From assembly GCA_903813345.2 (NCBI GenBank), contig CAIIXF020000006.1:37909936-37973935 (forward strand): DNA of 64,000 nucleotides, written 5' to 3'. This document shows positions 2,413-59,600 of the stretch, piece after piece. The notes under the pieces were generated by a model. The model saw nothing but the letters and a program-made list of their open reading frames with translations. It was not told the origin of the DNA and made no database searches. The position numbers and the translations under genes were made by a program. Positions within the stretch are counted from its first letter, which is position 1. The number at the start of each line of letters is the position of its first letter. Source of the DNA: Owenia fusiformis (Eukaryota; Annelida; Polychaeta; Sabellida; Oweniidae).

Positions 2413-2660
2413 ATGAATGTAAGAGACTCTCGTCCTAATAGTGCCAAAAGCAGCGCACGTCCTGGCAGCGCTAAAAGTACCAGTTCAAGTGTATCCAATG
2501 GACTACCACCACGACGAATCACACGATTTATGAATGGAGATGGTCTGCCATCTGGAGGGGGACTGGGCCAAGCTAAGTCAGACGCTGTCAGTTATGAAGA
2601 CCTTCTGATAGCCCAGTACCTAGATGAGTTGAAAAAAACACAACCCTACACAAAGAAAGA
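2413..2660 (+). CDS. DCDC1: Coding exon 1: start codon, RPxSA-rich N-terminus
   Basis: The exon begins at 2410 after the acceptor at 2408-2409, and the ATG at 2413 is the first in the frame. It encodes a Ser/Ala/Arg-rich tail (RPNSAK, RPGSAKS) typical of microtubule-associated proteins. It ends before gtaagt at 2661, with two bases of the next codon. Confidence 0.85.
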
Positions 2661-32600: not shown

Positions 32601-35600
32601 CAGATTCATAAATAAAGGCATATATGGGTGCATTGTTATATGTAATAACCCGAGGGCGTCCCGGAGGAATAATTAACTAACGACCGCGAGCATTGGTCCA
32701 ACAAACCAGATAAAGAAATTGTGCTAAATTCAATGCCCCGGGTGGGAATCGAACCCAGCTGGGCTGTCGTAGCAACTTACTAGCAAGGGTCGTTACAAAT
32801 GCATCTATAATTCATCATAAACTAAGATTTTATAAACTAAGATCTTTAAAATTGAACCCTTCAAAGACTGTATCATGTCCAACGTACGTGGGTAGGTGGG
32901 TATGAGGTAGGAGGTTTTTTATACAAAGCCGATGTTTACGTTATTGAAATATGTACTGTAATATTTGTAATTATACTGTAGTCATTGACTGTTATGTGTA
33001 TATGGTCACGTGATTAGCGGGATACGGGAAAAATGGGAAATTTCGAATCAACAATTTTGGGGTACTTTTATTGCAAATTTCAGGTATTTATAAAGTGTTT
33101 GTGGTATAAAATGTAATCCACAGACATAAACGAACATTCAAGCTATATGTTTTATTAGGTTCTGGGGCTATTTTTGCTCTTAAATTTACAACATTGAAAT
33201 GGAGGGTAATTTTTTTTCGAAAAATAAGCTATCAGTCCAATCACCAGTGAAAATGTGCAGATTTTATGTTTTGCTTTGTTTATCTTGTGTGTATATAATT
33301 TTACAAAAAGTATAATGGTGATGGTGTTCTTGAGTTAGAAATTTATTGAAAAAAATTGTTTAAAATTCAAATAGATGGCGACCACTGGATTTAAGTTGGC
33401 CACCATTTTAATGTCAATTTTACAGTATTTAAGCTACAACATATCAATATAAAATTGTGATATTCGAATGTTTAAATTCAAAACATTATATAGGATATTG
33501 ATTATAGTTAAAAATCTGAGTATTTTAAAAAACATGGTAGCCATCTTGAAAAATGGTGGATGTTACACGCTATTTTAGTATTTTTACTGTAACTAGAAAA
33601 GTAGTGAAGGGATTTTGTTGATATTTGATATGTGAACACTTATGTGCATGGTACACTGTATTTTGACACTTTGGCAAGAAGGCAGCAATTTTGAAAAATG
33701 AAATAAGAACCTTTCTTAAAAGGAAGGTTTAATAACTTCAAAAGCTTTGTAATGAAGGATTTTTATCGCACCCTAAGGTGCTATATTGTAATCAGTTTGC
33801 CGGGCGGGTGGGCGTCCCAAATAATCTTGTCTACAGGTTTCCAGCCAAACCGTTTGAGGCATTCCTTTGAAATTCTCAGGGATGTTTCTACCTATGAAAG
33901 TTTAGAACTGATTAGTTTTCAGTCCTAAAATCTTGTCTGTCAAGGCTTGTCTACAGGTTTCCAGCCAAACCGTTAGAGGGATTCATTTGAAATTCTCAGG
34001 GATGTTTCTACCTATGAAAGTTTAGAACTGATTAGTTTTTTGGCATTCTGGGTAAATGTTAAGGCGGCCATTTTGGATTTTCCGTCCTAAAATCTTGTCT
34101 GTCAAGGCTTGTCTATAGGTTTCCAGCCAAATCGTTTGAGGGATTCATTTGAAATTCTCAGGGATGTTTCTACCTATAAAAGTTTAGAACTGATTAGTTT
34201 TTCGGCATTCTGGGTAAATGATAAGGCAGCCATTTTGGATTTTTCATCCTAAAATCTTGCCTGTCAAGTCTTGTCTACAGGTTTCCAGCCAAACCGTTTT
34301 AGAGATTCATTTGAAATTCTCAGGGATGTTTCTACCTATGAAAGGTTAAAACTGATTAGTTTTTCGGCATTCTGGATAAATGTTAAGGCGGCCATTTTGG
34401 ATTTTCCATCCTAAAATCTTGTCTGTCAAAGCTTGTCTACAGGTTTCCAGCCAAACAGTTTGAGGGATTCATTTGAAATTCTCAGGGATGTTTCTACCTA
34501 TAAAAGTTTAGAACTGATTAGTTTTTCGACAATCTGGGTAAATGATAAGGCAGCCATTTTGGATTTTTCATCCTAAAATCTTGCCTGTCAAGGCTTGTCT
34601 ACAGGTTTCCAGCCAAACAGTTTGAGGGATTCATTTGGAATTCTCAGGGATGTTTCTACCTATAAAAGTTTAGAACTGATTAGTTTTTCGGCATTCTTGG
34701 TAAATGTTTTGGTGGCCATTTTGAATTTTTCATCCTAAAATCGTGTCTGTGAAGGCTTGTTTTAAAAAATAAAAAAGAATTTCCCATTGAGAGCAATGTT
34801 GAATTAAAGCATTTTTTAAGAAATAACTAAACGCTCAATCTTTCCAATTTTCACATGTTTTGTAATACATCAGTATATCTTTTACCAGGATATTTTCAGG
34901 AAAATCTGAATTGTAGAAAAAAAGCTGATACACTGTGAAGTAATACCTTAAAACGTGTCTCTTGAGGGTTGTTTACAGGTTTCATGTATTCATCCTAAAA
35001 TTTTAGAGATGTTTCTATGGAACGTTTAGAACTGATTATATAGTTTTCAGGCAGTCTGGGTAAATGTTAAGGTGGCCATTTTGAATTTTCCATCCCAAAA
35101 AGTGTATTCTGTTGAAAGGTGCGATTCTGTTCACAGTGTGGCTTATTTAGATGTTATGCCGACAAATATTCTTTATTATGGAGCTTTCTGTCAAAAATCT
35201 TCGTAATGAAACAATTTAAACCTGCAGTGTAACACCTGGTACCATATTCTCAAATTACCAATTTTCAGTCACTGTAAGCTTAATCTTTCCAATTTATTCA
35301 AACAGTTTACTTTGAACAAGCATGACAAAGAATGGTATGAGTCCCCGCCAAAAAATCTTTCAAATTCATGCAGTTTGTCACCATTTTGAGCACTTCACAA
35401 GTGATTTTAGCCATATTTGGGCCAAAATTGTCAAATGTGAACCCTCTCTGGAAACTTTTGAAAACTTTCATAACTTCTAAAAGCTGCCAATCAGCAAGGT
35501 AATCAGAAAGGCAGTTTTTAAAACATAAGCGCTGGTAGTTGTTGTCATGTTAGCAACACTGAGCCCATGTATAGATGGCGTTGCATTTGCTGTACTAAGT

Positions 35601-38600
35601 TCGGGTGTTGTTGTTTCACCTTGCAATTCAGTTCCATTCAAGACTTTGGTAAAAGTACAATGGCTTCTACTCAGATTAAATGTTCCTTTAGGTAATGTGT
35701 CCATTAGTTTTTTCTCGCTTTTTTCTAAAACCGTCTCCCAGTCCAAAGTTTGGTTAATGTAGGCAACATAAAAATTGTTAATAGAGCGCAACTTATCTCT
35801 GCATTTACTCTGGACGATACCAAAGATATTGTCAAATGCCTTCCATATAAGATTGATAACATCAATGATACAGTTGCCGTTAATAAAACAGATACGGCAC
35901 ATTACTTCAATCACCATGGTTTCCTGGAGAACACACTTGCCATTTTGGTACGAGTATGGTGGTGAACATTTGATTATACGTGTCTCTTTATTTTGTATAT
36001 TGAAACTTGTTTGAATTCCAGCCAATCTGGCAACTGGGACAATTTCAACATTCAGACTCTCATCAGTCCCCTCTTCTAACAATATTGAATAAGAGAAGAA
36101 AGAGATAATGTTAATGTTCCTTTCTACTGTTTTGCCAGTACAGTTTTTATTGTGTCCGTTGCAATATATGCAGTATGTATTTCTCACATAGAAAAAAGTG
36201 GCCAATTGGGGATCATATGCTCCTTTCATGCATTGTTGTTTCACCGTGTCATTTCTACATCTGGATCTGCAACTGTTTAGAACATGCAAACATGGGCGAA
36301 CATCTGTAGGCACAATTGGCTGAAAAATGGTCATGCATTTATGGCGATTAATTCCCAGCATTCTTGGCATGAAATTTTCACTTGTTGGATCATAGAAATT
36401 CCTTCCAGAACAGTTTACAATGATCTTCCATTGTTGAATGTTTTTCACATCATTGCACAATGCACAGAAATGGTTAGCATAGATGATTCCTGACTGAGGG
36501 TCAGTGGCAGGGGCTTCATCTATCAGCCCTTTTGGTTTTACACACTTCTGTACAACATCAATGTCTTTGTACCCTGACTTGCATGATTGCTTCACGTAAA
36601 TGTTCATATTAAAATTAACTGACTTACATACAGAACGTTCATCTATCACCCTGGCTTCATCCATTGAGGCATTTTTCCCACATTCTGTATTGGACTTACA
36701 CTGTTGCACTGGACGTCCATCCTTCTCTCGGACTTCAACGATTGAGACATTTTTCTTGCATTCTGTATCGTAATCGGGACAACAATCTTCATAAACATGG
36801 CAGGCATTATCGCAAAAACATAACCATAAAGGATCAGTAAATCTATTCATCTCTCCACATTTTCCACGGCAGCTATTCTTCATACAAGGTACATACCTGG
36901 ATGGTAACGCACATATGTCATCAGATTCCATTCTCGTTCTTTCTGATATCAACTCAGCGTTAACTGATGTTGTGGTGTTCAGAGCGCTTGTTGTGTTCTG
37001 ATAAATGTTTGGGTTGCTTGTACCCACTGTAGCAGCACCATCTTCTATGCCCATCCTCATTTGCTTAAATGCCGAAGTCTCCCCCATTTCGATCAGAACC
37101 CTAGCAGTTAACATCATCAACAATATTTCAGCAAGCATTTTTCTGTTTCCGTTTTCTCTTGCGGTTTTCAGGCAGTTGCGATGTTTTTAAAGTATTCTCT
37201 CCATAGGCCCAGGAACATGTACAAGTAATGCAGGCTCACATTGGTCAAATTTCGATTTTGCATTAACCGTACACGTTCCTGACCTTATGGTTCTCTTTGA
37301 GACAAAGTTCACATCAGTGTTTCTTGTATCTACTTAGCTCATCAACTTACTAATGGTCTCTAAAAGCATTTTCTGTATCTAAAACTAACCATATGTATGT
37401 ATGTATGTATATTTGTTGATTAAAGTCTCACATGTCTCCTGGACATCAAGCCGTTGCCGGCTTAGGAGAGACTATAAAATTTAGTACATTAAAATTTATT
37501 TTTAAAATGTTGTATAAAATATAATCAGTTTATCCATATAGTCCATTTGTCACCCCTATACATACTATAGTGAACCTATGAATTGTTAAAAACACAATGT
37601 TTTATGGTTAATTTATAATAACAGGGGTTTTCTGAAGTGATTTAACTGGGTTGGACAAAAAGTTAGTTTGGGGAAAAAAGTATATCGGCTAATAAGGGAG
37701 GGGTGCATTGGCTTAACATGGTGTTGAATATTGACTTAGCGTCGGGATACCACCATGTACCTGGTATTTTACCATGGCGATAGATACAAAAATTTTCCCC
37801 AACGTTAATTTTTTGGCAACCCAGCTAAATCACTCCAATAAACCCTAATGATAGTATTTGCACAGAAAAACATCATGTTTTTAAATATTCGTACGTTAAG
37901 AAAATGACAAATGGACTAATATTAAAATATTAATGTTCTTCTGTGTTTCATTATATTAATCAATGTATCGGCTAATGTCCTTTGTAGGTTTGAGTTCATA
38001 ATGAGAGCATATTGAACTAGGTTATTGCATTGATTAAAGTCACTGTATAGAATATTCATTTTGTTTATAAGTGTCTTGCCTTTGTTGTACATACATATTG
38101 CAAGATAAAAGAATGTGTCTTTCATCTTCAATTGAGCCTGTTCCACATGTACAAAGTCTGTTCTCAATGGGAGTTGGTGGTCTACAGTATCTGCCAGTCT
38201 CTATATGGATTTTCAGTGTCCCTGATCTAAGCTGAGCTAATATTGTGCCTCCTCTGGTTCCTACTGAGCTGGTTTATGACATAACCCTCAGGTTCAACTG
38301 CATGTGTTTTGTGTAGCCTGTAGGTACGTAACTTGTTACCGTTAATTGGAGCTTTGCTGTCATCCCAAAGATTATGCACCCATGCGGTGTGATACGCCGA
38401 AATAAGCAGTTGCTTGAAGGCTTGAAGTTTTGTCTTTACATTAGATATATATGGTTCATTGAAGTATTCTGTTCCAGACGATTCAAATAACAAGGTAGTC
38501 TGCATTTCCCATGACTTTGATTGTCCTGGAAAAGTACATGATGATGACCATATAAAGACTTTCCTATTGAGACGATCATGGTCCATGTTAGTTAGCCTAC

Positions 38601-41600
38601 AGAACAGACGTGCAATTTCCACCCGCTGTTTAGTGTAAATTGAAGGCCATGCCATGTCTCCGGTGGTGGCTATGTTTGGTGCACATTTCCCAAGGCATAG
38701 AAAATAATGACATGCTCTGTTCTGTATGGCATTTATGCATGAATACTGTTGTGTACCCCATATTCCAGTCCCATATAGGAGAATTGGCTGAACCATAGTT
38801 TCAAAAAGTCTTGTGTATACTGTACTTTATATGGAAATCCTCCAAAGGATTTAAACTTGGCAATCACCGCTCCAAGAGCTTGGTTGGCAGATTTTGCGAG
38901 TATTTTTACTGATTCATTATAGTCCAGGTGCTCATTAAAATACAGTCCAAGATATTTATAATCATGTGTGTAATCAAGTGTTATTTCACCACATATAAAT
39001 TGTTTCTGGCATCGATTTACATTTTTGGGGCGGAAATGCATTATTTTGGTTTTGTCTTTATTAATCTGTACTCTCTACTTTTTGCACCATTCATTTAAAA
39101 TATTGAGTAGTTATCCCATCGAACGAAGTTCGGAGGGATATAGGGAACCCATCCGTCCGTCCGTCCGTCCGTACGTCCGGGCAATAATTCAAATACCGTT
39201 GGCCCGATTTTGTTTATATTTTGTACACATATACCCTATGGAGGTAGAAGTTCTGCTCGAAAGCCGATTTTCAAAATGGCCGCTCATTTCAAAATGGCGG
39301 CTATTTTAGTGCCGATTTTATAGTAATTTAGGTGCTATATGTAAAACTGTAATAGCAATATGTTTTAAATGTAAAAAAATTATAAGGGGCATTAATAATG
39401 CTACAAATGTAGATATTAAAGAAGCACATGGCAGCCATCTTGAAAAATGGTGGCCTTTACTCGTCATTTTACGATTTTTGCTGTAACTCAAAAAATAGTG
39501 GAGCGATTTTGTTCATATTTGGTATGTGAATACTATAAGCATTGCACACTGTCTAAAGACACTTTTGGTAGAAGGTGGCCATTTTGAAAAATGGCCGCCA
39601 TTTTAACGTACTATACTATAACTCGAAAAGTAGTGGAGCGATTTTGTTCATATTTGGTATGTGAATACTATAAGCATGGTACACTGTCCTATGACACTTT
39701 GGGTAGAAGGCGGCCATTTTGAAAAAAAAATTGAAAAATGGCTGCCATTTTAACGTCTTTTACTATAACTCGAAAAGTAGTGGAGCAATTTTGTTCATAT
39801 TTGGTATGTGAATACTATAAGCATGGCACACTGTCCTATGACACTTTTGGTAGAAGGCAGCCATTTTGAAAAAAAAAATTTGAAAAATGGCCGCCATTTT
39901 AACGTATTTTACTATAACTTGAAAAGTAGTGGAGCGATTTTGTTCATATTTGGTATGTGAATACTATAAGCATGGCACACTGTCTATTTCTAATGACATT
40001 TTTGGTAGAAGGTGGCCATTTTGAAAAATGGCCGCCATTTTAACGTATTTTACTATAACTCGAAAAGTAGTGGAGCGATTTTGTTCATATTTGATATGTG
40101 AATACTTTAAGCATGGCACATTGTCTAATAAAACTTTGGGGAGTAGTCGGCCATTTTGAAAAATGGCCACCATTTTTATGTGTGTTATTTTACAGTACAT
40201 GTTTGATTTTTCAAAAATTTTAGAGGTGGCTACTTAAAAGCATATTATTTCTTCTGATGACAACTTGGCAAGTGAGCAACCATTTTGAAAATGGTGGCCT
40301 TTCTGGTGTGTTGTTTTATGATATTTGCTATTCGTTTGTAAAAATGCCAGCCATTTCTGTTCGATGGGATTCGCTACGCTTTGGCGTTGCCGCTGTTCTG
40401 GTTGTTGTAGATTATCTGAGCTTGGGGCGATCAAAATAATATCATCTGCATATGCTAAAATACCTATGTTAGTCCCTCCAATGTCAATGCCATATCCAGT
40501 GGTATTGATTTCTGATATAAGGTCATTAATACATATCGAAAAAAGGGTGGGCAATAATTTGCACCCCTGTTTCAGACCACAGGTCACGTCAAACCATTCT
40601 GTAGTGCTGCCGTCACTCATCCTTACTGCACACTGAACATCCTTGTATATTGATGTAATAGCAGCATACATACGTCCTTTAACACCCATGTTTGCAAGTT
40701 TGAGCCACATGCAGTCTCTATTGATATTGTCAAACGCACGACGGGCATCCATAGGAGAAACGTAGGTAGATTGCTTCCGCAGTTTGCGATTGTTAACTAT
40801 ATCATGTAATGTGTGGATATGATCGATGCAGCTTCTCTTTTGACGAAACCCATTTTGACTATCACATAGTTTTTTGTTAAGTTCTATAGCCATTTAGTGA
40901 GTCTACAGTTTAAAATGTCACAGTATACTTTAGCTGGAACAGATATAAGTGATATTCCTCGATTGTTCATCGGTACTCTGCTATCTCCAGCTTTAGGTAT
41001 TGGCTTAATTACTCCACGGTTCCAAATTGATGGCACACATCCATTTTTAAAACATAGGGAAATTATTGTAAATAGAATTTCAATACATGTAGGGATTTTT
41101 AATACCTCCACTGGGATATTATCTATTCCAGTTGCTTTACGAATTTTAGCTCTTGTAATGCTGTCTATAACTTCCTGTTTTGTAATATCTGAGTTTAAAA
41201 TTGGTATAGTAGTTGAATTCTCATCGAGGGATTTTTAATACCTCCACTGGGATATTATCTATTCCAGTTGCTTTACGAATTTTAGCTCTTGTAATGCTGT
41301 CTATAACTTCCTGTAATATCTGAGTTTAAAATTGGTATAGTAGTTGAATTCTCATCGAGGTTCATATTGCTCAATTCTGTTTTCACATTGGTCAGGTGAG
41401 TTTCATCAAATGTTTGGTTATTAGCATCATTATACATATTGCTGAAGTCAGTTTGCCATTGTTGACGCACAGCCTCTGGGTCGGAACTTGTTACATCTCC
41501 ATTTTCATTGACTAATTCCATTGGTGTAAAATTAGGCCTATCAATTCAGCAATTCCCGTACTTCTATATAATTTCCAGAAAGAGGTCTGTTCATTTGAGT

Positions 41601-44600
41601 TACACATTTCCAAGAGGTGGGCCTGTTCATTTACTTGATGTTGACGTTTCGCTTTTCTAAGGGACTTGTCGAACCTACGTCTTGCTGCACAGAAATCTTG
41701 ACGCAATGTTTTCTTTTGTCGAGATTTGTCACTTAGCCAGATCTTCTCCCTTTCTTTAGCATAATCCCATTTTTGTTGTAGTTCATCAGACCAATATGGT
41801 TTGGCACGCTTTTTATGTTTAAATTTGACATTATTGTAATTACGTTTGTGGGGCAGTTTTAAGTCCATTTCAGAATGTACAAAGTTCATAAAATTGGAGA
41901 AAGCATCATCAATGCCTGAAATATCTTCATCAAGTGACTGTATTCTATCTAAGGTTGCTTGTAGCTGACGCTGTACATCGTCACCCATCATAAAATTGTC
42001 TAGTATCACATTAAGCTTAAATTGCCTATTTTTGTTTATTGCATTGTTTACAGCATATGGTGCAGAATTAATTGGTGGCAGGTTTATAGTACTATATATT
42101 AATGAGTGGTCAGGAATCTTCACTGGAACGTGTATATCATATTTTGAGATTGCCTCTGTCATTGTTAGTACACTGAAATCTGCCCAGCTATTTAGTTGCT
42201 ATTTAGACACGTCCATTTAGCATGCAGGTACTGGTGCTAGTTAGAAAATCAATCAGGATGTCTCCATATGCATTAGTTGTAAAATCAGAAATATGAGTAC
42301 GTAGTTGTATATGGTCCACCCCCTCAATGAAATCATTTGATTCACCACATCTGGAATTTAGGTCACCACATATGGCAAAGTATCCCAAGTTCTGATAAGC
42401 ATATATTTGATCTTGAAGACTTTGATAAAATAATTCTGCATCACTCTGCCTCAAGGAATCCATATATAATAATCTAAGATTTATCCCATACTTGAGATTT
42501 TAAGTACATACATAATACTCTAGATTTATCCCATACCTGAAATTTTAAGTACATATATAATACTCTAGATTTATCCCATGCCTGAGATTTTAAGTACATA
42601 TATAATACTCTAAGATTTATTCCATACCTGAGATTTTAAGTGCATATATAATACTCTAAGATTTATCCCATCCCTGAGATTTTAAGTACATATATAATAC
42701 TCTAAGATTTATCCCATACCTGAGATTTTAAGTGCATATATAATACTCTAAGATTTATCCTTTAACTGAAATTTTAAGTACAGAAATAATACTCTAGATT
42801 TATCCCATACCTAAGATTTTAAGTACATTCTACCTTCCAAAATTTAAAAAGTGAAGATTAACCTTAAAAATGATTTTTCAAAATCCCAAATATTCTGAAA
42901 ATACATGTACATGTATATACACATGTCAGATGCCACCTAGACGTTTATAATGGCAAGTTTGAAGAATATGTAAAGTGCTTTATGTTTAAACTGATTTTTA
43001 TAAAAAGTCACCTATTTTTGAAAAGACTGGAAAATATGCTGAAAAATGATGAAGTTTTCAATAAAGTATATCTTCATGTGTGCTAACATTTCATGTACTT
43101 TTATATGTGTCATTTTACAATTGTTGCAAGGCCTCCAAATGTATAGCAATTTTTTGATATATAAATATATGAAGGTATGTTATGATACATCCTTTCACAA
43201 TATGGCTATATCTTTAAAATTGAGGGTCATCATTTTTTGTTTTACTCGAAAAATAAGTTATCAGTGCAATCCATCCTCCGATCACAGGGCTTCAAAATCC
43301 AGAATATCTTCTTTCTTTTTACCCCCTGCGATAAGCAGTTAGCATTTCCCCAATTAAGAATTCGCAATTTGATTCGCTGTCGCAACATTGCGACAGCAAT
43401 CATGTATACATCATCGGTGCATAATTAGATCACATGATTCAGTTTTGTCGGGCGATTCCAAATTGGTTTTAGCAGGGGGAAAGAAGGAGGTACGGATCAT
43501 GGACACCAGCTTAGGAAGATGGTGCAATCATGAGTAAAAATGTGCAGATTTTATATTTTATTTTGTTTGTCTTATGTGTATATAATTTTTTTACAAAAAG
43601 TATAATGGTGATGGTGGTCTTGAGTTTGAAATTTATAAGAAATCTTTTAAAATTCAAATAGATGGCGAAAGTGGTCATGTTTCTTTATTTCAATAGCCTT
43701 TGTGTGCAAAAACATTTTTAATTAAAAAGTTGAGTTATAGAGCTATTCCCGTGGCATATGGGGTTAGGTACGAAAATCCTCGTTTTTTACGTAATTAATC
43801 CGAAGATTTCACCATTTTCCAATTAGATTGTATTTCGGCATGTTATCGGGGAATTGTCCCTCAGAAAGTCACTGAAGTTCTGACTGAATATACACTGCAC
43901 ATGCTCAGAAACTAAAGAATCTGGTTGGCTACTCAAAATATTGAAATTGCGATCCAGTGTATGCATAATTAATAGCAATTCTAAATAATTTTTGTGGAGG
44001 TTGGCTGGCATTAAAAAAGCGCACTAAAACATTACTGTATCATTTTACTTTAATGGATATCAATTAGGTTAATTAACACAACTTTTAACTTAAAATATCG
44101 TCTTGCCAGTTAACAATTTAAATAACATCACTCTAAAAGTAATCTGATCAAATCAAAGGTGGAACATTGACTGTAGTGGATGTCATCAGCTTTCATTACC
44201 TTTTATTCAGTATCAGATTTTCTTAAAATTAATCTTATCGAAGGGGCCAGCTCATTATTTCAATGTACATCATGTGATTAATTTAGTTAGGTCTTAGACC
44301 CCCCCCCCCCCTTCTAATGAAAGTCAAAATGTTGATTTGTGGACACAGTACAAGTACAACCCCTGTATAAAATATCTGCTACTGCTATAAACAACACATA
44401 TTGAATTCTCTTGCTGTGATTTTGGTTTATTTAATGATCATAGCATGGCTGTCATACCATTATAAACATTCTAAAGAACAGATTTAGTTGGGGTTTTTGG
44501 TGGGCACCGTCATTGTGAAAATGTCAGGATGCAACGAAGGAAAAGTGAATACAAAAACTGCAGAAGATGAAATCCCAGGAAACTAAAAATTAATGTCCTT

Positions 44601-47600
44601 CACCTGATTAAACCCCCTCCCAACATAATTAACTTCAGTTTTTTGACAGACATTGAAATATTGACACAGCCTGCAGCACCCATTTTATTCAAATATACAG
44701 AAACCGCTACATTATCTCTATAAGATACGTTAATGGATTTGGAAAAATGAGATCATTGATATTTCATTTTAATATCGGCATTTTGAAAGCTTTTTTTCCA
44801 AAAAAGAATTTATCTGATCTGAATATCTGATCAGATATGAATTTTAAGATGCAGAAATTTCCAAAATTATAATTGAAAAGGAGGAGTATACCCTTTTCAA
44901 TTTTTCAAGAGAAAACTTAAAAATGATTGTCTTCTATTGCTTGGTAGGTCCGAATCATTATAAACAATCATTTTATTTATTATTTTTTATTTATTTACAA
45001 TCATGTTTATTTATTATTGCAGACCTAAGCGACAGCTTTCTCCTAGATACCCAGGGCTCCATCTCCAAAAGTTCATATACGAGGAAGGTTTTATCATCTG
45101 TAAGGTGAAACCAGAGCTCGTATTGGGAGTTCTGGAGTCTGAATCCCGCGTGGCTGAAGTGGTCCTCGTCAAGAAACGTCCCGATGATATCTTCCAGAGA
45201 TGGATTGTGCATGATAATGGGTAAGTGGGTCAGAGGCTTGCTTTATTTTTTGGGTTTTTTATAGACTTTTTTTTGGTTTTTTTATAGACTTGATGGACTT
45301 GATAATTTGGCTTTCATCTGAGAAGTACATTGAAAAATACACTATATTTTAAGAATAAAAGTTTTTTTTCCAAAATATCTAAGATAACTTTTAAAGTCAT
45401 AAACATGGTAATTGAATGATAAAAACATATAATCAAACTTTGCAACTTTTGCAACTTTTTTCAAAATATCAAAAATGTATTTATTTTTCAGTATTATCCA
45501 GGCTAAACATAGTCCCCAGATGGTACTAACAGTAACCATGCCAACCAACACACGTCGTGAGGACGACTCTATGCCACTCAGTTATGTTGGGTCAACAGTA
45601 ATCCTCAGCAACAAAAAAACGACGCAATTTGGACGAAGTAACCAAATATGGCGTTATGATCCTGAAACTGGTTTTGTTCACTCGTTCTTCACAGATATCA
45701 CTGATAAAGGTGAATTTTAAGAATTTCACATATCTTAAATCCAAAATTCCTAAATCTTCGATCAAGTGCAATTTAAGTTATATCATCTAAAATTGAATAT
45801 TTATTTTGACAATCTAAAACGCTATGATAAAATTTTAATATAGATTCTCAATTTTATTTATTAAAAGTCATTCAAAGACTTCTGTTTTTAAATAAATAAA
45901 ATTCATATCACTATAAAATTGGATTGGATAAAACTGCAAAATCAGCTAAAGTGATATAAATTTTACATGGGGCCTTTAAACGGCTATTTCTTTAGGCGAT
46001 AAATAACATGTATCTCATCGTAAAACAAAAGTACAGGACTGAATTTTCAGTTTTTTCTTTCAGAGGTGACATCTGCCAACAAGGCCAATGTTTGTACATA
46101 TTCAGTAGCAGGAGCAGAGGAATTGGACCAACCTGTAAGTCAGCCATTCTTAACCCACCCACCATTTTATTGGATCTACTTATGCACTGGCGGATCGTGG
46201 GGGGGGAGGCTTGGGGGACCCAGAAAAAAAATTGGGTCCAAAAAAAATTTTGAGGCAAAAAAGGCCTTAAGGCCCCAAAAAGTGGGCCTTTTAAGGCCTT
46301 TTTTTTAATTTCAGGCCAAATTTTGAAGAAAATGGGCCCCAAAATTTCAAAATTTGGGCCCACTTTTGGGTTAAGTTTTTTCTCTGACCTGAAATTAGGG
46401 CCCCCCCCCTTGTTTGTTCCCAGATCCGCCCCTATTATGGGTTGTCATTTTCCAATCTCATTTGCACCTTGGCTTTGCGTAAAAACCTGTTTGAGACATT
46501 TCTTTGGCTATTCATTACACATGTCTCTTGCTAATTGCCATACATGCTTAGAGATATCTAACAGATATCTAATACCTAATCAAGGGGAAAGTTCAGCAGC
46601 TACAATTTTGGAAAGTTGATTGTCCTTTGCTAGCAACTGACATTGTGAAATATATATATTATTCACAATATTCAATATATAATATAACATATAATTCATA
46701 ATATACCTGAAATAATAGATAAATTACATCATTTTTCTTGTCTTTAGGGTTATATTGTCCAAATGGCTGACCAAAATAACAAAGTCCATGAGTTGATTGT
46801 TTGTTCCGCATGTGCTCGGGCCATGAGAGGGCGCCACAAGCTTGAGATGTTGCCTCATAGCGTCGACTTTGCCTGCGCTATGGGAACAGGTATGCCTAAA
46901 AAAAATATTTTAATTTAGAATTTATTTTTTAATTTAACAAAAAACAAGAATTCACCATCAACAATTAATTTTGATATAAGGGTAACTATGGTAACAATGA
47001 AATCAAATCCAAAATAAAAATAGCAATGAAAGCAATCAAAAATAAAGATACTTACACAGTAAATTAAAAAGACACAGACTGATTATTCATATATACATAA
47101 TTATTTTACAGCAAAATACATTTCTAACATTCAAAATTGAAACTGTGAATTAAAAAGCACATGATGATTATTTATCTTGTATATTTATTTATTTTACAGC
47201 AAAAGACAAAGGTTTCAAACAAATAGGTAGCTTCCAATGTTTAAATGGGAAAGTTGACCTTTCAACATTTGAGGCTGAGCACACTCTAGAAGAGTGGGAA
47301 CTACAGCTGGAAAACCTCCGCCAAGAGACCAGCGTACGTGCAATCGCCCAAGAAATATCCGCTGCCAGAGGTCCAAAGACTGTCAAAGTTTACGCCTATA
47401 AAAATGGCGAGGGCCGACTTAAAGAAGGGGAACTTCTATTTGGCTCCAGCATTTTGGGGGTAAGCTTGAACTATATATCGGATGAATATTTGATCTAACA
47501 AAATGAAGCAGAAAGATGTGACCAGTCCATCCTCCTAAGCAGGTGTCCAGAATCCGTACCTCCTTCTACCCCTGCTATAACCAATTTGGTAGTGCCCGAT

Positions 47601-50600
47601 TAAACTGATTCACGTGATCTAATTATGCGCAATGACCTGTACATGATTTCTGTCGCAGTGTTGCGACAGCCAATCAGATTGCGAGTTCTTAATTGGGGAA
47701 ATGCTAACTGCTTATCACAGGCGGTAAAAAGAAAGAATATATTCTGGATTTTGAAGCCCTGTGATTGGAGGATGTGACCAGTCACACATAACATTAAGTT
47801 GTAATCATCATCACCAAGATGATTCGTGTAAAATATTCAAAGATTAGAAATTTTACTGTTAGATTGCTGATCTGTTATCATTTTTACTTGTACAGGATAG
47901 CGCTATTGCCAGAATATGTATATTACACTTCAGTAGCTAGGACAACATTGTTGCTCAATTTGATATTATCCGATTGTAGATCCTAGACCAGTGCACCCAC
48001 AGGCTGCAGATGGCAAGTGCCGCACGTCGTATCTACACAAGTGACGGGATGATCATCCTTGACATTGATGACCTCATACAATGGGCCGTTAACAACTACA
48101 CGGAGATGATGCGGAGAGATCTCAGACGCACCAAAGAAGCAAATATGAAAAATAAAAAAGGAAAAGAAGATGGTGAGTCTTGAATGAAAAACTATGATAT
48201 AATTCAAGTTTTAACATTCATTGTGATCGATCATCAGTAATACCTAATTTGGTAATTTTTTGAATCCCGATTTCGATTGGAAAAGTAGGATGTTAGAAGA
48301 TGAAAATTCTTTTTTAATCCACACATCGAGCATATGGGATTGGGTCTGTGCCCATCTATTCACCTGTCAACACTGGTGGTACAATGTAAAACTCCCTATT
48401 TGTTGTTCCATATAAGGTCATATGCTATATTCATTTGATGTCTGTCCATAGTTACTCAGTATCTCCCGACCTGAGATCGTTCTCTTTTTCTCAAATCTTA
48501 GTTTTCAGTTTTTGAGAAATTGGCAAAAAGTAGACGACTTGGTCCTTTATTTTAACTGCTTGATTGTGTTTGTTACAGATGAAGTGTCTAAAGCATCATC
48601 GGACGAAGATGACGAGGGAGATGAAGAGAAAGATGAAATGACAGGGATGCTGGAAAAGATGAAGATGGATGCAAGAGAGGATGATGAGGCCTCAGTCACA
48701 AGTAAGATTTAAAAACAATGTAATCTTAACACTCCCAGGAGAATGTATTATAATTACAATGTAACACAATGGTCAGAAGCGTGCATTTTTTCTATATTTT
48801 GCTGTTGTTCATATTTTGTCATCCTTATATTTTCAGTGAAGTTTTGACATGATTTGAATAGTTTTGGCAAAATTTGTAAATTTTCCATGGCTATTTTGAT
48901 TTATCTCCTTGGAAATTCTTTTAATTCAAGTCTTCACTCATACGAAAATTACATGTCACTTTAAAAAGATCTTTACTACTTATCAACCAATGAAATCAAT
49001 TCTATGATTCACTTCCAGGTATGAAATCGGAGATGTCTATGGATGGACCAATGAAATCCAAGGAGAAAAAAGTCAAAACTGAGATTACATTTGTAAATAA
49101 ATCGGGAATAGATGCCAATATGTTCTGGGTGGACTATGACGGAAATCGTAAAAAGCACGGAATTTTACCAAATGGAAAAACTAAAAAGCAACGGACTTAT
49201 TTAACCCATGTGTGGGCATTTGAGGATGCAAATAACACAGATACAATATTCATTAATGGAGCCAAGTCACACAGAGTCATGGAGCAGAATCAAACAGTTC
49301 TCATACAAGGTGAGTAAAAATTGAAGTTTTATGTTTATCTTTGAAAGAATTTGTTTAATTATGAAGCGTGTAAGACTGAAAGACTGATCGATCACTGATC
49401 TATTTTTATTTAGCATTGTATAATTGCATTCTAAAGAATATAGGAACACACAACAAAACAGTTGGTTCAAAAAAGGGAACGCACCCCCCCTTCCCCCTTT
49501 GGAAGTCCATGTCCCCCTTTCCCCCTTTGAAGTCCATACCCCCCTTCCCCCTTTGGAAGTCCATGCCCCCCTTCCCCCTTTGGAAGTCCATGCCCCCCTT
49601 CCCCCTTTGGAAGTCCATACTCCCCCCTTCCCCCTTTGGAAGTCCATGCCCCCCCCTTCCCCCTTTGGAAGTCCATGAAATTAATATTTTTGCTATTCCA
49701 GGTAAGCAAAAGGCCTGGCCGTCACATCGTGGAATCATAGAAATCTACGTGACAAGTGTTGAGACGCCCAATAACTTTATATGCCAGTTAGCCAGTACAA
49801 AACAGCAACTTGAGATGTTAGTGGGGCAAATGACTCAACTGTATGAGGAGAAAAGGACAGCTGATCTTGAGGAGGCCAGTACAGATAGTGTTCGTGAAGA
49901 TGATATGACAGATGATGTAAGTCAACTGCTGTCAAATTGCATATTCAAATTTAATACATTTAAAGTTTAAAAACATTTTGTGGCATAAGTTTCAGCAGAC
50001 TTTCACAAGTGGTGACATATTGTTATAGTCTCCAGCTTTTTTGTGGATTGTGTTCAGCATTTGGTATTCAGTGTTTGGCATCTGGTAGTTTGTGTTTGAC
50101 ATCTGTAAAAAATGGCAGGTGGTGACATTTTGCATGTTAATTCATATCTATACTGACTTTGAATGCTGCATTTTTTTTATCAAAACACAATGCAATACAA
50201 TACAATAAAATACAATACAATACAGTCTAAGCTGACATGAAACAATTCATATAGAAGGTATTATCCTGCTCTCCTTCTATTTTTCATTAAATAACATAAA
50301 TTCTAAAATCTCAAATGTATTCTTGTTCTATTCTATTTCAGTTCTCTATTGTTGTTGATGATATGGTGGCAGCCAAGCATGAAGTTGGAGATGATGGTGT
50401 TGGACTCTATGATTCTATAATCTCAAATACATACTTGTTTTATTCTTTTGCAGTTCTCTATTGTTGTTGATGACATGGTGGCAGCGAAGCATGAAGTTGG
50501 AGATGATGGTGTTGGACTCTATGATTCTATAATCTCAAATGCATACTTGTTCTATTCTATTGCAGTTCTCTATTGTTGTTGATGACATGGTGGCAGCCAA

Positions 50601-53600
50601 GCATGAAGTTGGAGATGATGGTGTTGGACTCTATGATTCTATAATCTCAAATGCATATTGGTTCTATTCTATTGCAGTTCTCTATTGTTGTTGAAGACAT
50701 GGTGGCAGCCAAGCATGAAGTTGGAGATGATGTTGTTGGACTCTATGATTCTATAATCTCAAATGCATATTGGTTCTATTCTATTGCAGTTCTCTATTGT
50801 TGTTGATGACATGGTGGCAGCGAAGCATGAAGTTGGAGATGATGGTGTTGGACTCTATGATTCTATAATCTCAAATGCATACTTGTTCTATTCTATTGCA
50901 GTTCTCTATTGTTGTTGATGATATGGTGGCAGCCAAGCCTGAAGTTGGAGATGATGTTGTTGGACTCTATGATTCTATAATCTCAAATGCATACTTGTTC
51001 TATTCTATTGCAGTTCTCTATTGTTGTTGATGACATGGTGGCAGCCAAGCATGAAGTTGGAGATGATGTTGTTGGACTTTATGATTCTATAATCTCAAAT
51101 GCATACTTGTTCTATTCTATTGCAGTTCTCTATTGTTGTTGATGATATGGTGGCAGCCAAGCATGAAGTTGGAGATGATGTTGTTGGACTTTATGATTCT
51201 ATAATCTCAAATGCATATTGGTTCTATTCTTTTGCAGTTCTCTATTGTTGTTGATAATATGGTGGCAGCCAAGCATGAAGTTGGAGATGATGTTGTTGGA
51301 CTCTATGATTCTATAATCTCAAATGCATACTTGTTCTATTCTATTTCAGTTCTCTATTGTTGTTGATGATATGGTGGCAGCCAAGCATGAAGTTGGAGAT
51401 GATGTTGTTGGACTTTACGATTCTATAATCTCAAATGCATATTGGTTCTATTCTTTTGCAGTTCTCTATTGTTGTTGATAATATGGTGGCAGCCAAGCAT
51501 GAAGTTGGAGATGATGTTGTTGGACTCTATGATTCTATAATCTCAAATGCATACTTGTTCTATTCTATTGCAGTTCTCTATTGTTGTTGATGACATGGTG
51601 GCAGCCAAGCATAAAGTTGGAGATGATGTTGTTGGACTTTATGATTCTATAATCTCAAATGCATACTTGTTCTATTCTATTGCAGTTCTCTATTGTTGTT
51701 GATGACATAGTGGCAGCCAAGCATGAAGTTGGAGATGATGTTGTTGGACTTTATGATTCTATAATCTCAAATGCATACTTGTTCTATTCTATTGCAGTTC
51801 TCTATTGTTGTTGATGACATGGTGGCAGCCAAGCATAGAGTTAGAGATGATGGTGTTGGACTCTATGGTGCTATAATCTCAAATGCATACTTGTTTTATT
51901 CTATTGCAGTTCTCTATTGTTGTTGATGATATGGTGGCAGCCAAGCCTGAAGTTGGAGATGATGTTGTTGGACTCTATGATTCTATAATCTCAAATGCAT
52001 ACTTGTTTTATTCTATTGCAGTTCTCTATTGTTGTTGATGATATGGTGGCAGCCAAGCATGAAGTTGGAGATGATGGTGTTGGACTCTATGATTTTATAA
52101 TCTCAAATGCATACTTGTTCTATTCTATTGCAGTTCTCTATTGTTGTTGATGATATGGTGGCAGCCAAGCATGAAGTTGGAGATGATGGTGTTGGACTCT
52201 ATGATTCTATAATCTCAAATGCATACTTGTTCTATTCTATTGCAGTTCTCTATTGTTGTTGATGACATGGTGGCAGCCAAGCATGAAGTTGGAGATGATG
52301 GTGTTGGACTCTATGATTCTATAATCTCAAATGCATACTTGTTCTATTCTATTGCAGTTCTCTATTGTTGTTGATGACATGGTGGCAGCCAAGCATGAAG
52401 TTGGAGATGATGTTGTTGGACTCTATGATTCTATAATCTCAAATGCATATTGGTTCTATTCTATTGTAGTTCTCTATTGTTGTTGATGACATGGTGGCAG
52501 CCAAGCATGAAGTTGGAGATGATGTTGTTGGACTCTATGATTCTATAATCTCAAATGCATATTGGTTCTATTCTATTGCAGTTCTCTATTGTTGTTGATG
52601 ACATGGTGGCAGCGAAGCATGAAGTTGGAGATGATGGTGTTGGACTCTATGATTCTATAATCTCAAATGCATACTTGTTCTATTCTATTGCAGTTCTCTA
52701 TTGTTGTTGATGATATGGTGGCAGCCAAGCCTGAAGTTGGAGATGATGTTGTTGGACTCTATGATTCTATAATCTCAAATGCATACTTGTTCTATTCTAT
52801 TGCAGTTCTCTATTGTTGTTGATGACATGGTGGCAGCCAAGCATGAAGTTGGAGATGATGTTGTTGGACTCTATGATTCTATAATCTCAAATGCATACTT
52901 GTTCTATTCTATTGCAGTTCTCTATTGTTGTTGATGATATGGTGGCAGCCAAGCATGAAGTTGGAGATGATGTTGTTGGACTTTATGATTCTATAATCTC
53001 AAATGCATATTGGTTCTATTCTTTTGCAGTTCTCTATTGTTGTTGATGATATGGTGGCAGCCAAGCATGAAATTGGAGATGATGTTGTTGGACTCTATGA
53101 TTTTATAATCTGAAATGCATATTGGTTCTATTCTATTTCAGTTCTCTATTGTTGTTGATGACATTGTGGCAGCCAAGCATGAAGTTGGAGATGATGTTGT
53201 TGGACTCTATGATTCTATAATCTCAAATGCATACTTGTTCTATTCTATTGCAGTTCTATATTGTTGTTGATGACATGGTGGCAGCCAAGCCTGAAGTTGG
53301 AGATGATGTTGTTGGACTCTATGATTCTATAATCTCAAATGCATATTGGATCTATTCTATTTCAGTTCTCTATTGTTGTTGATGATATGGTGGCAGCCAA
53401 GCATGAAGTTGGAGATGATGTTGTTGGACTTTATGATTCTATAATCTCAAATGCATACTTGTTCTATTCTATTTTAGTTCTCTATTGTTGTTGATGATAT
53501 GGTGGCAGCCAAGCATGAAGTTGGAGATGATGTTGTTGGACTCTATGATTCTATAATCTCAAATGCATACTTGTTCTATTCTATTGCAGTTCTCTATTGT

Positions 53601-56600
53601 TGTTGATGATATGGTGGCAGCCAAGCATGAAGTTGGAGATGATGTTGTTAGACTCTATGATTCTATAATCTCAAATGCATACTTGTTCTATTCTATTGCA
53701 GTTCTCTATTGTTGTTGATGATATGGTGGCAGCCAAGCATGAAGTTGGAGATGATGTTGTTGGACTCTATGATTCTATAATCTCAAATGTATTCTTGTTC
53801 TATTCTATTTCAGTTCTCTATTGTTGTTGATGATATGGTGGCAACCAAGCATGAAGTTGGAGATGATGTTGTTGAACTCTATGATTCTATAATCTCAAAT
53901 GCATACTTGTTCTATTCTTTTGCAGTTCTCTATTGTTGTTGATGATATGGTGGCAGCCAAGCATGAAGTTGGAGATGATGGTGTTGGACTCTATGATTCT
54001 AAAATCTCAAATGTATTCTTGTTCTATTCTATTGCAGTTCTCTATTGTTGTTGATGACATGGTGGCAGCCAAGCATGAAGTTGGAGATGATGTTGTTGGA
54101 CTCTATGATTCTATAATCTCAAATGCATACTTGTTCTATTCTATTGCAGTTCTCTATTGTTGTTGATGACATGGTGGCAGCCAAGCATGAAGTTGGAGAT
54201 GATGGTGTTGGACTCTATGATTTTATAATCTCAAATGCATACTTGTTCTATTCTATTGCAGTTCTCTATTGTTGTTGATGATATGGTGGCAGCCAAGCAT
54301 GAAGTTGGAGATGATGTTGTTGGACTCTATGATTCTATAATCTCAAATGCATACTTGTTCTATTCTATTTCAGTTCTCTATTGTTGTTGATGATATGGTG
54401 GCAGCCAAGCATGAAGTTGGAGATGATGTTGTTGGACTCTATGATTCTATAATCTCAAATGCATACTTGTTCTATTCTATTTCAGTTCTCTATTGTTGTT
54501 GATGACATGGTGGCAGCCAAGCATGAAGTTGGAGATGATGTTGTTGGACTCTATGATTCTATAATCTCAAATGCATATTGGTTCTATTCTTTTGCAGTTC
54601 TCTATTGTTGTCGATGACATGGTGGCAGCCAAGCATGAAGTTGGAGATGATGTTGTTGGACTCTATGATTCTATAATCTCAAATGCATACTTGTTCTATT
54701 CTATTGCAGTTCTCTATTGTTGTTGATGATATGGTGGCAGCGAAGCATGAAATTGGAGATGATGGTGTTGGACTCTATGATTTTATAATCTCAAATGCAT
54801 ATTGGTTCTATTCTATTGCAGTTCTCTATTGTTGTTGATGACATGGTGGCAGCCAAGCATGAAGTTGGAGATGATGGTGTTGGACTCTATGATTCTATAA
54901 TCTCAAATGCATACTTGTTCTATTCTTTTGCAGTTCTCTATTGTTGTTGATGATATGGTGGCAGCCAAGCATGAAGTTGGAGATGATGTTGTTGGACTCT
55001 ATGATTCTATAATCTCAAATGCATACTTGTTCTATTCTATTTCAGTTCTCTATTGTTGTTGATGATATGGTGGCAGCCAAGCATGAAGTTGGAGATGATG
55101 TTGTTGGACTCTATGATTTTATAATCTCAAATGCATATTGGTTCTATTCTATTTCAGTTCTCTATTGTCGTTGATGACATGGTGGCAGCCAAGCATGAAG
55201 TTGGAGATGATGGTGTTGGACTCTATGATTTTATAATCTCAAATGCATATTGGTTCTATTCTATTGCAGTTCTCTATTGTTGTTGATGATATGGTGGCAG
55301 CCAAGCATGAAGTTGGAGATGATGTTGTTGGATTCTATGATTCTATAATCTCAAATGCATATTGGTTCTATTCTATTTCAGTTCTCTATTGTTGTTGATG
55401 ATATGGTGGCAGCCAAGCATGAAGTTGGAGATGATGGTGTTGGACTCTATGATTCTATAATCTCAAATGCATACTTGTTCTATTCTATTTCAGTTCTCTA
55501 TTGTTGTTGATGATATGGTGGCAGCCAAGCATGAAGTTGGAGATGATGGTGTTGGACTCTATGATTCTATAATCTCAAATGCATACTTGTTCTATTCTAT
55601 TGCAGTTCTCTATTGTTGTTGATGACATGGTGGCAGCCAAGCATAAAGTTGGAGATGATGTTGTTGGACTTTATGATTCTATAATCTCAAATGCATACTT
55701 GTTCTATTCTATTGCAGTTCTCTATTGTTGTTGATGATATGGTGGCAGCCAAGCATGAAGTTGGAGATGATGGTGTTGGACTCTATGATTCTATAATCTC
55801 AAATGCATACTTGTTTTATTCTTTTGCAGTTCTCTATTGTTGTTGATGACATGGTGGCAGCCAAGCATGAAGTTGGAGATGATGGTGTTGGACTCTATGA
55901 TTCTATAATCTCAAATGCATACTTGTTCTATTCTATTTCAGTTCTCTATTGTTGTTGATGATATGGTGGCAGCGAAGCATGAAGTTGGAGATGATGGTGT
56001 TGGGCTCTGGTTTCGGGCACATGTTCTCAGTTCTGATGATTACAGTGCTGTCGTTCGATATGTCGACTTTGGATATGTCGCTGAGGTGGAGAAGAAATTC
56101 ATTCAGCCATTAAAGTTAGTAAATCGTAAAATAGCTAATAATTTGATAGATTTTGATAGATTTTATGGAAGCCTCACACTAACATGTTCTCTTTACATTG
56201 AAAATTGTTACATCAATGTTAAACTTTCTGCCTACTGGACTACATGTTCAAATCCTACTTTCAGAACTGAATTCTTGGAGCTCCCCTTCCAAGCAATAAC
56301 ATGCAGTCTCGCCAAGGTTGGGCCGAAAGGAAAACGCTGGGAGGAAGATGCCATCAGCGAGTTCAGAGAGCTGACGTCATGTGATATGCCATGGCCCAAT
56401 GGGGTACAAGTCGTTGGGGCAAAGACATTGACGTATATGAATCCGGAAACAAAAGAAACTCCATCTATTTACATTTTACTCCCTGGGGAGGAAAGGGTGA
56501 GAAGTTTGATATATTTCTCTTTCCAAATATTGCACTATGTCTTTCCAGACATTGCACTAAGTCTTTAGAAACATTGCACTAAATCTTTCCAGACATTTGA

Positions 56601-59600
56601 CTAAGTCTTTGCAAGCATTGTACTAAATCTTTCCATTTAAACTCATTTAAGAAAACATGACCAGCAAAGGAATTACTTGTAGTTTATTGCTCTACCATTG
56701 CTCCCTCTAATATGTATTGAAATATTGAAAAAACATAACGGTTTAAAAACTGATCTTCTTTATCAGGAGATTAACATTGGAGAAGAGTTCCTGGCAAAGA
56801 ACTGGGCAGCTATTGCTAAAACTCCTAAAGCCAAACCAGCACGGCCTCATCGCAAGAATAGCATCTCTAATGTACAGCCACCACCCACAGAGGAAATTCT
56901 ACGATATCCCATTGAAGTGTGGGCCTCATCGGGAGAACCTTTCGTCAAACCAGAAGGTACATGCAGTAAAAACTGTCAAGTAGAACATCTCCGTCAATGA
57001 AATTCTTATGATAGTCAGGCCCGTAGCCAGGATTTGCCAAGAAGGGTTCTGTTTTTGAAAAATTCCAGGGGGGTTCACTTTTGACAAATTTGGCCCAAAA
57101 ATGGCCAAAATCACTTGAAAATGGCTCAGAATGGTGAAAAACTGCATGATTCTGAAAGAATGTTTGGCCAGGGGGTTCTCTCGCCCATTGCCCACTGACT
57201 AATTGTTAATTAATGAACCTCTGTTAGTAGAACACCTCCAAGTGAAACACTTTTAGGAACCAAAGGTGTTCCACTTACACAAGTTTTGCTATATTATGAA
57301 ATTTAAACTTTCTGCTAAATGTGCCTGACTTTATGGCTAAAGCTATTGTGGCATTCATCACATCTTTCTGTGCAATGCTCGAAGCACAGTCAATTACACA
57401 TCAGTGATCTCCCCAGCATTAAAGCAAGTGGACGCAGCACCCACCTGAGATTCTAAAAATAGGCTTGCACCCACTTGAAAATCCATTTGTTCCCACTTGA
57501 AAATGAGAAAAATCATGAAAAATTGGCACATTTTGATTTCAATTTTGGTCTGAATTGTGAAAATGAGAATTTTGCACCCACCGGAGAAAAAATCCTGGGG
57601 AGATCACAGCACATGTGTTGTAGTATTCTTTGTACAATGAATGAATGACTTAATAAAAAAACATCTTTCTGTTTCACTCTATACATGATTCTCATTGGAT
57701 TAGAAGAATGAGATGTCATGGGTCAAAAGCATTAGTTCATGCAAAGTTGACATTTTATATGGAAGTCACTGCAGCTTAGCAATGGCTGACTCTGATTGGC
57801 TAAATGAGATTTATCGCTTAATTTAAGAGGAACAGTTAATTATTCTAGCAAAGAGTAGTTTATTTTGTTTATAATAGCTTAAGGGAAAATGTGCAAAACA
57901 TCTATATTCCTATTTCAGCTGCTGAGGAACGTTACAACCGCAGTGTGCAAGAGAGAGAGGAGAGAGCCAAAGTGGGACGGGAATTAGACAAAGAAAAACA
58001 CGTCCTTAGGCAAATGCAAGGTAATTTTATCAGTTATTTCTCCACTCGGTTTTCATATCCATTCAGCTTTTATATTATAAATGCACGTTTGAATGATTTG
58101 ATATTTTGTGTAAGTGGCAAAATATTAGGTTTGATGAGGAGCATGTAGGAACCAATTACAACACTGGATATTATACCACTGTACGATAATATATCATATC
58201 ATACTTTACAGGTCGTAGGTTTGACGATTTGAATCCTGCAGAGTATGTAGGGCAAAGGAGTCCGAGGGATCCTGTTGCTATTGACCAATCACAATGCTGG
58301 ATATTATATCACTGTATGATAATAAACCATATCATACTTTACAGGTCGTAGGTTTGATGAGTTGAACCCCGGAGAGTATGTAGGGCAAAGGAGTCCGAGG
58401 GATCCTGTTGCTATTGAAGGGACATGGCAAGAGCCAAGCAATGAAGAGAAAATGAAACATGATAACATACATCAACTGGAGGTAATAAATACAGAATATC
58501 ACATCATTTTGAGTGATATCATTTTTATCGCCGAGTTGATATCAAATATCAACACGAGTGAGCGAAGCGAATGAGTGTTGATATTTGATATCTACGAGAC
58601 GATAAAATGATATCACGAGAAATTATGTGATATTGGGTTTATCCCATGATTTCAATCACCTTGTGATGTTCTGATCCAATTTCCAGGACATTGGCAGACA
58701 ATATAAACTAGAAATTCGCCAATTCTTCGTCAGACGAATTTGCACCGGCCACTGCGCAGTAATGCACTACTTTCTGTACATGATATAGTTCGTCATAAAT
58801 ACCATTTTTAATCGTTATTAAGCAGCCTTCTAATCAAATTATATACACAATCGTAATTCAATACACCAATGAAACTTAAAGAGAATAAATTAACGGACCT
58901 ATTTTCTCAAAAGAGAATAAATTATCTGACCTAATTTCCAACAATATTGTGGCGCGAAATGCAAATGTGATATCACACGGATATGCGTGAGATAAACGAT
59001 ATCACACGCATATGAGTTTGATAAACGATTTTCTGGAAAATATCACACGGATTTCAATAATATCAGAAATATCAATAGCTGTTATTGTACAGATAACACA
59101 TTAATCGTGGGATAAATACAGAATATCAGATCATTTTGAGTGATAAAACTTTTATCAATGAGTTGACGTTGTTTGATATCTACTAGGCAATAAAATTATA
59201 TCACTAGAAATGATTTGATATTGGGTTTATCCCATGATTATAATCAAGAATTTAAAGAAATCTAATTTGTTTATAAAACACATAAACGATATCAAGCATG
59301 TAAGGTTGATAAATAATTTTCTGAAAAGTATCACACAAATTTCAATTATATTAGAGAGGTCACTAGCTGTTATTGTTCATGGGATAAATGTATGATAAAA
59401 TCCCACTTTTGGTAAATGAAAAGCATCTGCAATGGCCTTGCTTAAATAGCAGGCCTTTCCGATGAACCCTATATAAACCCTGTATAATGAATAGGGGTGA
59501 GACGAGTCGAAAAAATCCGATTCGAGTCGAATCCGATTCGAGTCAGAAAATGACGATTCGAGTTTCGAATCCGTTTCGAGTCGCGCGAAGTGCGAACAAC

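Follow-up and report, generated by a model that had tools for sequence, protein, structure and literature searches.

The host gene and its Tudor exons

The window, a stretch of 64,000 nucleotides of Owenia fusiformis DNA, carries a gene model (Table 1) obtained by a small dynamic programming procedure based on codon usage and splice matrices, after which implausible exons were removed. Since Pfam recognized the DCX2_DCDC1, Ubiquitin_DCDC1, VHL, and TUDOR domains in its product, the host gene is DCDC1-like; between positions of about 49019 and 56496, it combines a VHL beta domain with a Tudor domain. When exons 33, 34, and 35 were joined, one continuous frame was obtained, which matched the TUDOR profile with 69.1 bits (cut-off, 23) over residues 12 to 145, crossing both junctions. 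This match supports the statement of an earlier note on this DNA that the segment repeated upstream of exon 34 consists of an acceptor and the first 66 nt of a Tudor exon. The introns flanking exon 34 measure 6025 nt upstream and 150 nt downstream.

Several other features of this gene were observed. Exon 32 ends with ACAAG/GTGAGT, and exon 33 begins with GTAAGC directly after its acceptor AG (49305-49310 and 49695-49710), so that joining both exons recreates a strong donor, AAG/GTAAGC, an arrangement resembling that of recursive-splice exons. Exon 33 could then be spliced out in turn, leaving the array acceptors to be joined directly. The 150-nt intron after exon 34 (56115-56264), which follows a weak donor, is in frame and stop-free, and its retention would put 50 extra residues inside the Tudor domain. 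At 49485-49677, a second minisatellite adjoins a splice region; its seven C-rich 27-bp repeats have no exon part and stop about 24 nt short of the exon 33 acceptor. Also, one of the host introns, 20 kb long, holds, on the minus strand and thus opposite to the host, three tandem copies of an intact, cysteine-rich, secreted-looking frame of about 570 codons (25995-27716, 29091-30857, and 35477-37186).

Table 1. Coordinates of the array, its host gene, and other repeats at exon edges
Feature	Location	Strand	Period and copies	Details or basis
Host gene, DCDC1-like (doublecortin-type, VHL, Tudor domains), ~34 exons	2413..61481	+		ab initio model, some exons uncertain
Exon 33, first Tudor part, donor GAT/GTAAGT	49702..49916	+		gene model, Tudor profile over junction
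Tandem array	50300..56008	+	112 bp x 51	TRF, unit dissection, genome matches
First acceptor of array	50342..50342	+		original intron still on its left
Units 5-8 (counted from exon start), equal to units 21-24 except one base	50790..51237	+		block exchange
Exon 34 from last acceptor, sole complete exon, 173 nt, weak donor AAA/GTTAGT	55942..56114	+		frame, Tudor profile, donor scoring
Exon 35, remainder of Tudor domain	56265..56496	+		frame, Tudor profile
Small mirage, host gene	5783-6028		81 x 3	acceptor
Small mirage, host gene	8880-9073		96 x 2	donor
Small mirage, host gene	12771-13075		offset 158, x 2	acceptor
Small mirage, host gene	20023-20279		85 x 3	donor
Small mirage, host gene	58151-58417		133 x 2	acceptor
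Second large acceptor array, another Tudor gene	C5:40857163-40860872 (exon starts; L101, L026)		105-106 bp x 36	acceptor
Repeat at Tudor exon	L033:1619-1745			donor
Repeat at fn3 exon	L100:746-891			donor
Repeats at kinase exon	L105:225-553 and 766-906			acceptor and donor
Repeat at MEK-like kinase exon	L110			donor

An array of 51 units over the exon 34 acceptor

At the acceptor of the Tudor exon, a segment comprising about 46 nt on the intron side and 66 nt on the exon side is present in 51 tandem copies. TRF reported a single array with a period of 112 and 51.0 copies (score, 10340), far above chance. Anchored on the exon start, the 51 exon starts run from 50342 to 55942, and all 50 intervals measure 112 bp, in agreement with the location and the 50-period spacing given earlier. 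The description of the array as fifty exact 112-bp copies holds for the period, with 51 units, but not for the sequences, since 43 of the 51 units are distinct and the pairwise identity over all 51 ranges from 87.5 to 100% (mean, 95.6%). Every unit spans the exon-intron boundary, with 46 nt of intron end, including a candidate branch site, a T-rich tract, and a YAG, followed by 66 nt of exon start. The YAG and the T-rich tract are found in 51 of 51 units, the acceptor reading CAG in 49 and TAG in 2, and the AG-free stretch ahead of the acceptor is 63 to 84 nt long in the units sampled.

The left flank gives way to the unit near 50300 (ATTCTAAAATC), the units follow each other within the array through the junction GGACTCTATGATTCTATAATC, and the last unit departs from the consensus at 56008. 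From exon position 67 onward, TGGTTTCGG (preceded by GGGCTC) follows the last acceptor, whereas the remaining 50 acceptors are followed by TATGATTC; the last copy alone leads on to the remaining part of the Tudor exon and to its donor. The spliced junction between exon 33 and an array acceptor would read ACAGATGAT + TTCTCTATT. Across the 498-Mb genome, a DNA search with the unit, in which very common words are skipped, returned 51 matches, all of them inside the array and none beyond it, and dispersed satellite DNA was rejected on these grounds.

Unit turnover and selection

The near identity of units 5 to 8 with units 21 to 24 indicates that blocks have been exchanged within the array, and neighboring units are slightly more similar than others (P = 0.026). 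The first unit is clearly the most divergent, with a mean of 101.4 matches of 112 to the other units, and the last is hardly so (106.3 of 112). Variation is spread evenly, with 36 variable columns of 112, of which 16 of 46 are intronic and 20 of 66 exonic (P = 0.68). The observation that every copy keeps its AG was correct for all 51 units, but it is not evidence of selection, since the chance probability that two given columns stay invariant is about 0.46. Because of this value and the even variation, we see no sign, in the column variation across the 51 units, of selection maintaining the AG of the acceptors, and the idea that selection kept it was rejected.

Upstream acceptors lead to stops and lack a donor

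Since unique intron lies to the left of the first copy and unique exon to the right of the last, each upstream unit offers an acceptor without a competent donor. As had been proposed, use of any upstream acceptor shifts the frame toward a TGA in the next unit; an in-frame TGA follows all 50 upstream acceptors within 129 nt, at +126 nt for 48 of them, at +129 for one, and at +81 for one. A competent donor was sought in every unit and none was found, the best donor-like site scoring -1.08, as it does in 48 of 50 units, versus 3.68 for the exon 33 donor on a generic matrix. The last copy alone reaches the exon 34 donor, as the earlier note had claimed, and this donor is itself weak (-0.42, generic matrix). 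Given units without a donor of their own and followed by stops, an array of cassette or mutually exclusive exons of the Dscam type was rejected. Recursive (ratchet) splice sites were also rejected, because every unit reads AG/TTCT, with no GT donor after the AG.

The acceptors themselves do not distinguish the last unit. In 39 of the 50 upstream acceptors, the score is at least as high as that of the last one, and 2 bases separate unit 47 from the last unit, so that use of 55942 would depend on information from beyond the unit. This information would be the rest of the exon with its donor, or position; pairing across the exon is the most likely source. RNA structure was considered as a mask of the decoys and rejected, since the fold of about two units of the RNA is less stable than that of shuffled sequences (z = +3.07), which makes such masking unlikely, and an Rfam search gave no match.

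Boundary repeats elsewhere in the gene and genome

Repeats crossing an exon boundary are not confined to exon 34, and five small ones were found in the host gene (Table 1). The 81-bp unit is in frame (27 codons) and open, so that its upstream acceptors would add protein rather than a stop. Tandem arrays lie at exon edges in the host gene in 6 of 12 cases, an enrichment that we do not claim, as it is weak and depends on the footprint (P = 0.11 with full lengths and 0.025 with two-unit footprints).

The second large acceptor array, located on C5, also precedes a Tudor exon and also has a period that is not a multiple of 3. Its units have a mean identity of 97.6%, carry CAG in 36 of 36 cases, and show the acceptor TTATTTCAG/GTACAAAAG, the unit also being given as TTATTTCAG/GTACAAAAGCAAGATGAA... 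Boundary-crossing repeats were present at 4 of 84 sampled exon matches, a rough sample in which some matches are neighboring. Locus L095 passed the boundary filter and was left out of this count, as it represents two neighboring fn3 domains, and L121, chosen for two close kinase matches, had no boundary repeat. Mirage-type repeats thus recur in this annelid genome beyond the host gene. In keeping with an annelid source, the genome also has three matches above the cut-off, within 15 kb, to Eryth_link_C, a domain found in the linker chains of annelid erythrocruorin. Separately, C458 (68 kb) contains an intronless open frame of 2258 codons with at least nine Tudor domains, which may represent either an unusual gene or contamination.

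Comparison with known repeats at splice sites

Minisatellites named "mirages" have been described in lancelets, in Adh3, troponin C, the globins BflGb6 and BflGb9, and PGBD5 (PMC3087553, PMC3902484), troponin C and PGBD5 being the further cases (PMC3902484). As in the Owenia array, they are tandem repeats over an exon-intron boundary, with splice signals in the units; their mosaic turnover has a probable counterpart in the block exchange seen among the Owenia units. The closest layout is that of BflGb6, in which an intron end plus an exon start is duplicated in 3 or 6 copies, with RT-PCR pointing to normal splicing (PMC3087553). However, the BflGb6 units measure 150 to 160 bp, against 51 x 112 bp here and 36 x 106 bp in the C5 gene, and those of Adh3 measure 10 to 72 bp. 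The Owenia array is far longer than the lancelet arrays described in these papers (PMC3087553, PMC3902484), for which splicing was checked by RT-PCR. In the literature searched, of which coverage was partial, no mirage outside lancelets was found. The Owenia array belongs to a kind already described and is unusual in scale.

Other systems share some of these properties. In human ABCA7, a long donor-side VNTR in intron 18 alters splicing with its length (PMC5954066). Like the array here, it is a minisatellite that starts at a splice site, reaches large copy numbers, and offers a natural test of length versus splicing, but its 25-bp units are intronic and begin with the donor GT, with no exon part or acceptor as described. 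Beta-globin substrates with duplicated 3' splice sites (PMC5389562; Reed and Maniatis, as cited in PMC9225289) place a complete acceptor with a truncated exon piece in competition with an identical downstream acceptor. These substrates are artificial, have two sites, and were spliced in vitro, while the array is natural and has 51. The minisatellite of IFI6 (6-16) likewise supplies several splice sites, although it repeats donor sites in a short unit.

How the array may be spliced

Taken together, we consider it probable that the array is a mirage-type minisatellite across which exon 33 is productively spliced from 49916 to the last acceptor, 55942, the rest acting as decoys in a tolerated by-product. 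The best sign that 55942 is the productive acceptor is the protein continuity of the Tudor domain. This acceptor alone would pair with the downstream donor across a distance normal for an exon (173 nt), which is why we infer that productive joining ends there, whereas the upstream acceptors would define exons of 285 to 5773 nt. Exon definition favors sites that lie close across the exon, and human data show such behavior for exons whose upstream intron is long and whose downstream intron is short (PMC9225289), a class into which exon 34 would fall by its flanking introns. Lancelet mirages, moreover, appear to leave splicing undisturbed (PMC3087553, PMC3902484). In experiments in vitro, splicing of duplicated acceptors with truncated exon pieces was inefficient and used the distal site only, two acceptors on one RNA could both carry U2AF35 and U2 snRNP, and multiple strong 3' sites lowered the splicing efficiency (PMC5389562). 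The upstream acceptors here would probably bind U2AF and U2 snRNP, acting as decoys that slow splicing, and their use probably yields some transcripts lost to nonsense-mediated decay. The last acceptor would then be used faithfully, perhaps slowly. Rather than a built regulator, the array is probably a by-product that is tolerated in a genome prone to small tandem duplications, and its length may nonetheless tune the output.

Some observations speak against use of the last site. Transcribing 5.6 kb takes minutes, and the early acceptors are transcribed that far ahead of the last one. This delay and the weak donor of exon 34, which weakens the exon-definition argument, cast doubt on use of the last acceptor, as does the ab initio origin of the gene model. 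In addition, upstream, intron-proximal 3' splice sites are generally preferred (PMC9225289). An unlikely alternative is that early acceptors win co-transcriptionally, that a stop is present in most transcripts, which are degraded, and that the array is a brake, with the Tudor part rarely made. The upstream acceptors equal the last in strength, and the low stability of the two-unit RNA makes the units look exposed, as this alternative would have it; the intact Tudor frame downstream, the apparently normal splicing of lancelet mirages of like layout (PMC3087553), and the distal-only splicing of truncated-exon duplicates in vitro (PMC5389562) argue against it.

Frequent skipping of exon 34, or a regulated switch in which length or bound factors set the amount of Tudor-containing protein, appears less probable still. 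Skipping of this exon, not a multiple of 3 in length, shifts the frame, the units carry no sign of selection, and comparable arrays occur at unrelated exons. Nevertheless, the ABCA7 array, with 12 to 427 units, causes more skipping of the next exon as it becomes longer (PMC5954066), and the loss of efficiency caused by several strong 3' sites in vitro points in the same direction (PMC5389562). Finally, it is very improbable that the array is an assembly artefact, far shorter or missing in the animal. Tandem arrays are hard to assemble; however, the units are mostly distinct and mosaic, and the genome contains the separate 36-unit array and many small ones. If the assembly is the published one for O. 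fusiformis (505.8 Mb haploid, 12 chromosome-scale scaffolds), its PacBio N50 of 25.75 to 30.75 kb is several times the 5.7-kb array (PMC9977687). The exact copy number, given here for one haplotype, may vary between alleles.

Implications

The array is a natural counterpart of the duplicated-acceptor experiments by which first-site models are told apart from those of exon definition, and it offers 51 sites where the experiments had two. Faithful use of the last site would mean that the choice is decided neither by local sequence nor by transcription order. A broader reading, which we put forward tentatively and hold to be rather doubtful as a whole, is that the spliceosome of this annelid reliably skips up to 50 acceptors by pairing across the exon, that mirages are widespread, some with dozens of acceptors, and that their length tunes the productive mRNA; ABCA7 provides a human, donor-side precedent for length-dependent splicing (PMC5954066). 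Overall, these results suggest that mirages, which the papers searched describe for lancelets, are also common in an animal group distant from them, with consequences for views on the origin of intron positions and on the repeat load that introns tolerate.
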